DNA of 33,796 bases. Origin: a virus. The notes under the pieces were generated by a model. It had not been told where the DNA came from, did no database searches, and worked only from the letters and a program-made list of their open reading frames with translations. The translations under genes and the position numbers were made by a program. Of the stretch, positions 23,472 through 25,741 are shown piece after piece; the first letter of the stretch is position 1, and each line of letters starts with the position of its first letter. The stretch covers positions 1-33,796 of IMG/VR virus record IMGVR_UViG_3300048107_000338; one strand, given 5' to 3'.

Positions 23472-24470
23472 TCAAGCTGCCTGAAGAGAACCAGCAACAG
23501 AAGTACGAAGTACATCCGCTCCAAGTGCCAAACGACCGACGATCAAATCGCCCTGGTATTGAACATTAAAGTCACCAGAAGTTGTTTGAATAGAGGGTGC
23601 AATACCTTCTACACAACCAGCTGCTTCCTTATGGAACACCAGACCAGCAAGGTTTGAATTGTCAACAACATAGCTGTTGTTTTCGCCAGTTACAGCTGCA
23701 TTAGCAGTTGCGTCCTTGCCATACTGGTTAGCCAATACGTTGGACTTAAAGATACGAATGCCAGCAATAGAGTAAAGACCCTTACCACTATTCATATCAC
23801 CTTGGTTATTACCAACTTCGCGATTCAGGATATTAGTATCCACGCTAGAAATCAAGTGATAATATTGTCTAGGCGACAATACGCAGACCCGAGAATCCAT
23901 GGGGGCATTGCGCTCGTCTAAAGTTGCTGCACACTCGAATAGACCATCTACAATTGATTGGGCATCAAAAGTATTGCCTGATCCAATGTTAACTTGGAAG
24001 CCACCAGGCTCACCAGTTACCACAGAAGCGGTTGTTGCTGCTTTACACAGAACACGGCAAAGACGATCATCATAGTGAAGAGCTAAAGCTTCACCAATTT
24101 GCTTAGAAATTTCAGCTCGTTGAGAATATTGGCTGAGAATCTCGTCAAGAGAATACACGAACTGACTGGAAATAAGCAGATCATCCATGATGATTGTGCG
24201 CTCATTTGCCTTCAGAACTTCTGTAGGCTCGATAGCTGTTCCAGGCGTATGATACCCAGAATTGAGCTTTCCGCTCATCAAGAATTGCTTACTCTTGCCA
24301 CCTCGCAGGGTGTAAGAACGCACCAATCCTTTGAAAATCGTGGCGGAGTTGAAGGCATTAAACACTTCGCCTGAAAAGAGTTTCAGACTTGTGGCGTACC
24401 TATCATTATAAGAACCGGAACCAACAGCGCCATTGGCGGCGTTGGGCCTAGTAATGTTAGTAATAGTCAT
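23472..24470 (-). CDS. Major capsid protein (T7 gp10-like), 332 aa
   Basis: It forms the HK97-fold icosahedral shell. Sequence features typical of gp10 include YATSLKLFSGEVFNAFNSA, VRSYTLRGGKSKQFLMSGK, YHTPGT, the LLISSQFVYSLDEI segment and the VCVLSPRQYYHL strand. The size is close to T7 gp10A (345 aa). I chose the ATG at 24470 (MTITNITRP). The frame can be extended upstream only through a GTG into leader RNA, giving a non-gp10 N-terminus. No Shine-Dalgarno precedes the ATG; the leader there is a run of A and T. I see no slippery frameshift signal of the 10A/10B kind. Confidence 0.95.
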   Translation of the reverse strand: MTITNITRPNAANGAVGSGSYNDRYATSLKLFSGEVFNAFNSATIFKGLVRSYTLRGGKSKQFLMSGKLNSGYHTPGTAIEPTEVLKANERTIIMDDLLISSQFVYSLDEILSQYSQRAEISKQIGEALALHYDDRLCRVLCKAATTASVVTGEPGGFQVNIGSGNTFDAQSIVDGLFECAATLDERNAPMDSRVCVLSPRQYYHLISSVDTNILNREVGNNQGDMNSGKGLYSIAGIRIFKSNVLANQYGKDATANAAVTGENNSYVVDNSNLAGLVFHKEAAGCVEGIAPSIQTTSGDFNVQYQGDLIVGRLALGADVLRTSVAGSLQAA

Positions 24471-24592: not shown

Positions 24593-24690
24593 CCAGGGAA
24601 GGGAATCGAACCCTTCCTTCACCATCTGGTAGACACCGAGGCTTTTCCGGTCCTCGATTCCGTAACCGTTCCTTGGGAGTTTACAAGGAA
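24593..24690 (-). other. tRNA-like cloverleaf in the capsid leader
   Basis: On the minus strand a class II tRNA layout can be drawn: acceptor CCAAGG (24676-24671) with CCCTGG (24598-24593), one A-C mismatch; D-arm CGGT/ATCG with GG in its loop; a 5-bp arm ACCGG/TCGGT around a 7-base loop AAAAGCC; a long variable arm ACCA/TGGT; and a T-arm AAGGG-TTCGATT-CCCTT whose loop fits the T-arm consensus exactly. Defects: no U before the anticodon position, three bases instead of one after the D-arm, no CCA. A competing hairpin TTCCTTG/CAAGGAA (24690-24669) uses the acceptor strand. It is more likely a tRNA remnant or mimic than a working tRNA. Confidence 0.4.
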
Positions 24691-24702: not shown

Positions 24703-24804
24703 TTACTTAACAAATAAGTATTGGACACCTCTATAGGTGAGCTTAGTTTGTTTTTTGGCAGCTTTCTGTAGACGAACTGCCTGCTTGACTTGAATGTCAG
24801 TCAT
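24703..24804 (-). CDS. Riboswitch-controlled small peptide, 33 aa
   Basis: The peptide starts MTDIQVKQAVRLQKAAKK, then reads QTKLTYRGVQYLFVK. The LTYRGVxY motif resembles the short cyanobacterial DUF4278 motif, and the first half is a basic helix. Translation is well supported: GGAGAT lies at a good distance before the ATG. The same GGAG is the 3' arm of the 9-bp stem that closes the glutamine-type riboswitch just upstream. Peptides of 17-100 residues behind this riboswitch class are known as 'downstream peptides' in marine cyanobacteria and their phages. It sits between the scaffold and capsid genes, where T7 has no gene. Confidence 0.8.
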   Translation of the reverse strand: MTDIQVKQAVRLQKAAKKQTKLTYRGVQYLFVK

Positions 24805-24809
24805 TTGGA

Positions 24810-24879
24810 TCTCCATAGACCTGAGCCCCGTTCCATGCTTCAGGTGGCTGCGTCCTTTCGGATGAACGAACTATGGAGA
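24810..24879 (-). promoter_or_regulatory. Glutamine-II / downstream-peptide-type riboswitch
   Basis: Read on the minus strand, the element begins one base after the scaffold stop. CGTTC (24868-24864) pairs with GAACG (24833-24829). Inside is TCC-GAAA-GGA (24862-24853) followed by CG. The order CGUUCA-UCC-loop-GGACG ... GGAACG is the core I know from the glnA and downstream-peptide glutamine aptamers. ACCTGA (24845-24840) in the junction pairs perfectly with TCAGGT (24824-24819), a pseudoknot as in the downstream-peptide subclass. An outer 9-bp stem TCTCCATAG/CTATGGAGA includes the ribosome binding site of the 33-aa peptide. Ligand binding probably controls translation of that peptide. Confidence 0.75.
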
Positions 24880-24880
24880 A

Positions 24881-25741
24881 CTAAAGAAGGTCAGCAGAGT
24901 TCCTTAAACGCTCCTCTACATCTTCTCTAAATGCAGGGTCAGAGGAATACAAAGGATTACCAATATCCCTAGCAAGCTCTGCCTGAGACCTGTATCCCTT
25001 CACACGGGGTGAAGGAGCCTTGCCTGTTACAAGTGGTGCTTCATAGCCTTCATTGGTCTTGTAGCGTTGGCTAAGGGCCTCTACGGCAAATTTAGCTGCA
25101 GCAACATTAGTACCATTAGCAATTGAGTTGAAATCAGTAATCTCTTGTTCTGTCAGGTTAGTTGCAGCCCAATTGATCATCTCGTTATATGCCTCTACAC
25201 CACCAACTGACTGCTGGATACTTACAACTTCTGCTTGTTGCATAGATCGAGCAGCAAAGGCTTGGTCAGCTCTCTTTTGATATTGTAGATATGATTTGAT
25301 CAATTCTTCTGGAGCTAGTGTTGCAAGTTTTTTGATTGCATCAGGTGAGAGATCACCCGCTTCATCATATTCCTTACTCAACTCTTCCATGTAGGCAACA
25401 GTCTCACTGACCTCGCCTTGATCTAATACTTCTTCGGTTTCTTGCTCCCCTTCGGCTTGCAACCCTTCTTCGAGCGGCTCTTCGTCATCGTCATCGTCTT
25501 CATTACTTTTGCCTAGTTTCGATTGTAGTTCTTCATAAGCTTTAAGTAAGTCATCTTGACTTTTGAATTTACCCCCAATAAGGGCAGCAGATTCTTCATC
25601 ATCAACTTGTCGTTCCCAATTCTTATCTCGGTCCTCTTGCTCCATTTGAGCAATCTTTTCGCCCTGGGCTAGAGCTGCTGTTTCAGCATTTTGTTGTTCT
25701 GTGGATACACCCTCGGAAGGGTCAAAGTTAGTGGTGGTCAT
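24881..25741 (-). CDS. Scaffolding protein (T7 gp9-like), 286 aa
   Basis: It directs capsid assembly from inside the prohead and leaves before DNA entry. It is strongly acidic, with a DDDDDEEPLEEG stretch at about residue 85 and predicted helices throughout. It carries GGKFKSQDDLLKAYEELQSKLG (about 52-73), a segment common to phage scaffold proteins. The C-terminus (about 225-286) contains the helical, more basic part expected to bind capsid protein. Length and place between portal and capsid fit T7 gp9 (307 aa). Its stop codon is directly followed by the riboswitch. Confidence 0.9.
   Translation of the reverse strand: MTTTNFDPSEGVSTEQQNAETAALAQGEKIAQMEQEDRDKNWERQVDDEESAALIGGKFKSQDDLLKAYEELQSKLGKSNEDDDDDEEPLEEGLQAEGEQETEEVLDQGEVSETVAYMEELSKEYDEAGDLSPDAIKKLATLAPEELIKSYLQYQKRADQAFAARSMQQAEVVSIQQSVGGVEAYNEMINWAATNLTEQEITDFNSIANGTNVAAAKFAVEALSQRYKTNEGYEAPLVTGKAPSPRVKGYRSQAELARDIGNPLYSSDPAFREDVEERLRNSADLL

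Follow-up and report, generated by a model that had tools for sequence, protein, structure and literature searches.

Genes and features of the locus

The window is the whole stretch of DNA that was analysed, 33,796 nt in length. The part described here lies on the minus strand, between a gene for a scaffold protein and the gene for the major capsid protein, and contains the following features, given in the direction of transcription.

24881–25741, minus strand: scaffold (capsid assembly) protein gene, upstream; PF05396 (Phage_T7_Capsid) at 25 bits, just under the cut-off of 27.1, and synteny with annotated scaffold genes; stop codon at 24883–24881
24871–24879, minus strand: 5′ arm of the outer stem P0, UCUCCAUAG (anti-Shine-Dalgarno), beginning 1 nt past the scaffold stop codon
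24820–24871, minus strand: Glutamine-II riboswitch aptamer (cmscan, RF01704)
24864–24868, minus strand: 5′ strand of the PK helix, CGUUC (C1–C5; sequence and solved structure, PMC6698751)
24853–24862, minus strand: P1 hairpin, UCC-GAAA-GGA (sequence, cmscan, covariation)
24852–24849, minus strand: CGCA segment (sequence)
24840–24845, minus strand: 5′ strand of P2, ACCUGA (sequence, cmscan, covariation)
24829–24833, minus strand: 3′ strand of the PK helix, GAACG (G36–G40), within GGAACG 24834–24829
24819–24824, minus strand: 3′ strand of P2, UCAGGU
24810–24818, minus strand: 3′ arm of P0, CUAUGGAGA, holding the ribosome site GGAG (24814–24811)
24703–24804, minus strand: 33-codon ORF MTDIQVKQAVRLQKAAKKQTKLTYRGVQYLFVK, a DUF4278-like microprotein with a single YRGxxY motif; AUG at 24804, stop ending at 24703
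23472–24464, minus strand: major capsid protein gene, downstream; PF21703 (Gp10A-like) at 173 bits

Identity of the aptamer

An earlier note on this DNA had proposed a covariance-model search. Searching the whole 33,796-nt window with all 4227 families (cmscan) matched RF01704 (Glutamine-II, formerly Downstream-peptide) to 24871–24820 on the minus strand with a score of 41.9 bits (cut-off 33, E 4.3e-7), which puts the riboswitch match beyond chance. RF01704 was the sole family above its curated score in the window. The note had named the glnA and downstream-peptide families together; the latter held, and the glnA class (Glutamine-I, RF01739) was ruled out for this element by a score of 16.4 bits, far under its cut-off of 35.

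Every aptamer element that the note had read from the sequence was recovered in place on the minus strand. Its pseudoknot, ACCUGA:UCAGGU, was correct as to pairing and crossing topology but carried the wrong name: in the crystal structure this helix is P2, and the pseudoknot helix PK is CGUUC:GAACG (PMC6698751). In the window sequence, PK (C1–C5 with G36–G40) crosses P2, as expected of Glutamine-II. The pocket and junction nucleotides C1, G2, G18, C19, A33, G35, C39, G40, G41, and G42 (numbering of PMC6698751) are all there, and a short ORF follows, its AUG lying 15 nt past the aptamer end and opening a frame of 33 codons.

Covariation, which had also been suggested as a check, was found in an 18-sequence alignment of relatives for P1, P2, and the outer stem. 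The outermost pair of P1 varies as UA, CG, and GC, and five of the six P2 pairs have changed on both sides; PK is invariant among the 18 sequences and is uninformative in this respect. The covariation score of the whole structure in this alignment was matched by none of 500 shuffles, which keep the relatedness of the sequences, and by no slid version.

Placement in the head operon of T7-like cyanophages

To place the element among relatives we compared 25 records of cyanopodoviruses, 24 of them isolates and one a fosmid genome, picked by capsid similarity. Sixteen of the 25 scored above the RF01704 cut-off, in the slot ahead of the major capsid gene: P-SSP7, S-TIP28, S-TIP37, P-GSP1, SS120-1, NATL1A-7, S-RIP1, S-RIP2, 9515-10a, P-SSP10, NATL2A-133, P-SSP2, P-SSP3, MedDCM-OCT-S28-C3, S-CBP1, and S-CBP4. 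Weak matches were seen in S-SBP1 and S-CBP3, and no RF01704 match was found among these records in Syn5, P60, S-CBP42, S-CBP2, S-SRP01, DSL-LC07, and S-B28. Comparison with the annotation showed the matches with scaffold or psbA genes on one side and the capsid gene on the other; in P-SSP7 the element precedes the capsid gene, and in S-RIP1, where the capsid gene starts the record, the match lies near the opposite end. The position between scaffold and capsid genes, which the note had singled out as unexpected, is thus the rule in T7-like cyanophages.

As a check independent of the choice by capsid, viral contigs were scanned by aptamer pattern alone, which gave at least 80 loci. The patterns are strict, and the counts are of close matches rather than of all Glutamine-II copies. 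Among the matches listed, 76 of 80 loci adjoin T7-like scaffold or capsid genes, and in 54 of the 55 contigs with at least 2.2 kb of downstream sequence the capsid gene lies within 1.7 kb (median 372 nt). A host-type pattern was found in only two contigs of the viral set. Where an ORF stop lies close upstream, as in 99 phage leaders (L003 included), the distance from that stop to C1 clusters at 8–12 nt, whichever gene lies upstream.

The peptide encoded behind the aptamer

The 33-codon frame that had been noted behind the aptamer is present and ends in the YRGxxY motif (LTYRGVQY) of DUF4278, the kind of protein that this riboswitch class controls in picocyanobacteria. Full DUF4278 membership was rejected, the PF14105 profile scoring 17.0 bits against a cut-off of 25.3 and covering profile positions 40–57 only, about the last 16 residues of the match. 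Picocyanobacterial YRG proteins clear the same cut-off with 33 and 43 bits. A relative of the host YRG protein with a solved structure was searched for and none was found.

The 115 distinct leaders from viral contigs comprise 114 of phage type and one, L097, that is a bacterial-type copy at a contig edge. A YRGxxY peptide is encoded in all 114 readable leaders (a contig end interrupts the remaining one, L193) and is 13–45 residues long in all but one; the S-RIP2 ORF is an outlier that continues to 79 residues. A minimal type of 13–23 residues is exemplified by MKVTFVYRGVAYTRVIG, which is left unannotated in P-SSP7. The longer type, to which the window peptide belongs, has about 29–45 residues with a predicted helix ahead of the motif. 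Simple pairwise pN/pS ratios on these short, related sequences were 0.31 for the 33-residue, 0.35 for the 35-residue, and 0.62 for the 17-residue peptides; the 17-residue peptides are under weaker purifying selection than the longer classes. An AlphaFold model of the lone 33-mer (helix and two-strand hairpin, mean pLDDT 76, pTM 0.27) was left out of the argument.

The YRGxxY motif is also common to DUF4278 (PF14105) and to IF17 (gifB), in which DUF4278 covers the N-terminal, dispensable part (PMC6316151). IF17 inhibits glutamine synthetase through an IF7-like part. The window ORF stops four residues past the motif and lacks that C-terminal part, which rules out an IF17-type glutamine synthetase inactivating factor, and the peptide should not be named as one.

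The outer stem P0 and the ribosome site

The nine-base-pair outer stem with GGAG in its 3′ arm, also proposed in the note, was found at 24879–24871 : 24818–24810. GGAG sits 6 nt ahead of the AUG, and its partner in P0 is a CUCC directly 5′ of the aptamer. Seven of the nine pairs show compensatory, both-sided changes in the 18-sequence alignment. RNAfold, which cannot represent the pseudoknot, valued P0 at ∼9.6 kcal/mol with GGAG fully paired in the absence of ligand; the predicted folds permit P0 alongside P1 and P2.

P0 was counted as present at a threshold of 17 or more on a simple pairing score, which averaged 6.0 and never exceeded 13 over 500 trials of random re-pairing of 5′ and 3′ flanks. 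By this measure a strong P0 occurs in 26 of the 115 viral-contig leaders vs. none of 36 picocyanobacterial copies. It recurs with quite different sequences: CUCCAUAG:CUAUGGAG in the window, GAUUAACGA:UCGUUAAUC in leader L121, AAACACG:CGUGUUU in S-TIP28, and UUCGUAC:GUACGAA in S-TIP37 and S-RIP1. In the type represented by S-TIP37, S-RIP1, L132, and L182, P0 itself takes up C1, which is needed by the glutamine pocket (PMC6698751), so that P0 and the bound aptamer are mutually exclusive there. In the window, 2 nt bridge P0 to C1, and the opposite strand passes 11 nt through P2; as estimated from ordinary helix geometry, P0 and PK would not both form fully.

About three-quarters of the distinct phage leaders are without a strong P0, and P0 therefore cannot be the general mechanism. 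P-SSP7-type leaders without P0 could instead form a helix between a CGUCC ahead of the aptamer and the GGACG contributed by P1 and the linker; since GGACG hardly varies on unrelated grounds, covariation is uninformative on this pairing.

Comparison with picocyanobacterial copies and other phage riboswitches

The Glutamine-II aptamer class was described in 2010 (PMC2864571). In Prochlorococcus MED4, Yfr6 has a 33-residue peptide behind such an element (PMC2864571), and the co-occurrence of DUF4278 with glutamine riboswitches has been published (PMC6316151). Our bacterial set consisted of 36 loci of Prochlorococcus, Synechococcus, and relatives obtained from pattern matches in genome contigs; the other genome-contig matches fell in unrelated bacteria and seem to be chance hits of a loose pattern. 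The phage copies have in common with those of Prochlorococcus and marine Synechococcus, including Yfr6, the aptamer sequence, structure, pocket, and short YRG/DUF4278 ORF. They differ in their surroundings. The picocyanobacterial copies have their own promoter with an NtcA-type box, whereas the phage copies have lost the box and lie inside the head operon: GTAN8TAC, the NtcA consensus (a consensus match rather than proof of NtcA binding), lies in the 60 nt ahead of the element for 33 of 36 bacterial vs. 3 of 115 viral-contig leaders. They also differ in product, since most bacterial copies precede YRG proteins of 33–65 residues with usually two or three YRG-type repeats, and the phage peptides carry a single motif; many phage copies in addition possess P0. 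In the bacterial example MTLIYRGQKYVQNKEAAKKQHNELTYRGKAYTS, the second half resembles the window peptide (KEAAKKQHNELTYRGKAY vs. QKAAKKQTKLTYRGVQY). A few bacterial copies precede a different protein of 109–110 residues.

Phage-borne glutamine aptamers have been reported before. A glnA-class riboswitch is known from S-CREM1 and other T4-like cyanophages (PMC9964418; glutamine riboswitches are also mentioned in PMC9602691) and from the myophage Melnitz (PMC9004378). These RF01739 elements differ from the window element in aptamer class, virus group, and genomic context. Neither Glutamine-II in T7-like cyanophages nor its position in the head operon nor P0 was found described in the literature searched, which was mostly open-access; Rfam hit lists may already include these phages. 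The aptamer class is thus known, and the head-operon context appears to be undescribed in that literature.

Proposed mechanism and alternatives

We consider it probable that the element is a phage-borne Glutamine-II riboswitch by which glutamine turns on the translation of a YRG/DUF4278-like microprotein of 33 residues and host origin in the late head operon. The computed support for this reading is the identity of the aptamer, the peptide motif, the conserved place, the covarying P0, and the loss of the host NtcA box. At low glutamine, P0 would pair GGAG with the CUCC upstream of the aptamer and the peptide would not be made. At high glutamine, the aptamer would bind its ligand and the PK helix would form around it, leaving 2 nt to span the length of P2 from P0 to C1; P0 could then not close fully, the ribosome site would be free, and the peptide, which presumably acts on host nitrogen metabolism, would be made. 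P0 is strong and the ligand weak (micromolar to millimolar), so that no opening is expected at equilibrium. Control would therefore have to be exerted while the RNA is being transcribed, with the outcome set before the 3′ arm of P0 is made; PK is complete 11 nt before that arm starts. Type 2 glutamine riboswitches have been described as ON switches ahead of DUF4278 genes (PMC6316151), and the structure paper proposes that the ligand competes with a fold occluding the ribosome binding site (PMC6698751). P0 fits the role of such a fold.

P0 can also be read, as an alternative or an addition, mainly as a translational coupler, which would keep the ribosome site hidden until the CUCC arm is covered by a ribosome reaching the end of the upstream gene; the peptide would be made in step with the scaffold protein and glutamine would only tune its level. 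The scaffold stop lies 1 nt ahead of the 5′ arm, and with the 8–12 nt clustering of stop-to-C1 distances, seen for any upstream gene, a terminating ribosome would cover that arm. P0 is moreover confined to the phage copies, where the switch sits inside an operon, and absent from the bacterial copies with their own NtcA-type promoter box. However, leaders that have P0 also keep an intact aptamer, and the same spacing is seen where P0 is missing, which may reflect tight gene packing only. We regard this coupling as a real possibility, though less likely than not. An OFF switch, in which the folded aptamer aids closure of P0 and the peptide appears only when glutamine is scarce, is unlikely: P0 flanks the aptamer on both sides and could serve as its closing stem, in keeping with the predicted folds that accommodate P1 and P2, but the published polarity of the class is ON (PMC6316151, PMC6698751), P0 of the S-TIP37 type uses C1, and a 2-nt linker set against 11 helical steps disfavours P0 and PK together.

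Two further explanations bear on what the riboswitch is for. It might act on the capsid gene, or on everything downstream in the operon, with the peptide a mere leader ORF, as it is the capsid gene that consistently follows (in 54 of the 55 contigs long enough to show it, among the matches listed). We think this quite doubtful, and a little more so than the OFF polarity, given that the riboswitch lies about 340–360 nt from the capsid start, with the peptide cistron and another structured leader in between, that other genes (1 kb and more) intervene before the capsid gene in several phages, and that the peptide motif is kept more strictly than a leader ORF requires. That the element is a host fragment carried without function is very improbable. 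It is dispensable, as the seven phages lacking it show, but compensatory changes and purifying selection on the longer peptides contradict this explanation, and the element is retained in many genera with small, packed genomes.

For the glutamine-ON switch, a wider version can be put forward only tentatively: T7-like cyanophages would have in common a head-operon unit in which a host YRG gene was freed from NtcA control, cut to a single motif of 13–45 residues, and placed on a phage-type platform, to act as a late effector only when glutamine is plentiful. During phage infection of MED4, the antisense RNAs Yfr14 (to Yfr6) and asMED4_04601 (to a related YRG gene) rise early (PMC2518516). Their early rise is suggestive, and no more, of a part in infection; the host may thereby oppose the YRG protein family.

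Glutamine-II has so far been treated as marine picocyanobacterial and can now be seen to belong regularly to the head operons of T7-like cyanophages, where its copies combine a virus-type platform with a minimal peptide. That the arrangement is kept in most of the T7-like cyanophages examined suggests that these viruses read host nitrogen status while building particles; if the element works as in the host, they would sense that status directly by RNA during assembly. Peptides of 13–17 residues in many phages point to a minimal functional core for a cyanobacterial protein family that is widespread, and offer a practical route to its target. One cultured system with the riboswitch is P-SSP7 on Prochlorococcus MED4, in which the question can be tested now.

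Other structured RNAs in the capsid-gene leader

A second structured RNA lies in the capsid-gene leader at 24683–24622 (minus strand), where a pseudoknot arises from the pairing of CUUUUCC with the loop sequence GGAAAAG of the hairpin AUCGAGG:CCUCGGU. The pairing is replaced in relatives by CCUUCCGG:CCGGAAGG, CCCCCUAU:AUAGGGGG, and CUUCCG:CGGAAG (Syn5), and in the T4-like S-CAM7 by GGCUUUCC:GGAAAGCC, ahead of a terminator-like hairpin. No Rfam family reached its cut-off on this element. PhotoRC-I (RF01716) matches it at 15–29 bits, below the cut-off of 45, always on the strand opposite the head operon (window 24639–24680; relatives' loci L138:6026–6075, L256:2105–2153, and L185:2507–2555). The published PhotoRC-I motif may have been drawn on the other strand, or the second element may be antisense to PhotoRC-I.

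Closer to the capsid gene, at 24615–24590 (minus strand; also L246:2264–2334), the window and P-SSP7-like phages have a hairpin with a loop resembling a tRNA T-arm (GGGUUCGAUUCCC), possibly a processing site. In other relatives the slot is taken by another hairpin, whose CACCUCAGnGUCGGA loop is conserved, and in NATL1A-7 by a real tRNA-Gly gene. Directly ahead of the capsid gene in most relatives is a conserved hairpin with GGAUAAC (GCCC-hairpin-GGAUAAC, then GGUGC..GCGCC; 24580–24510, minus strand, in the window).

By ARAGORN, neither the window nor the relatives' riboswitch and head-region loci contain a tRNA or tmRNA, except for a tRNA-Leu in L097. L097 and L042 belong to one viral contig (IMGVR_UViG_2716884610_000003, 47.6 kb), in which a host-type Glutamine-II/YRG gene lies near one end beside tRNA-Leu. 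IMGVR_UViG_2716884610_000003 has a weak second Glutamine-II copy at its capsid operon and may be a cyanopodovirus integrated at tRNA-Leu.
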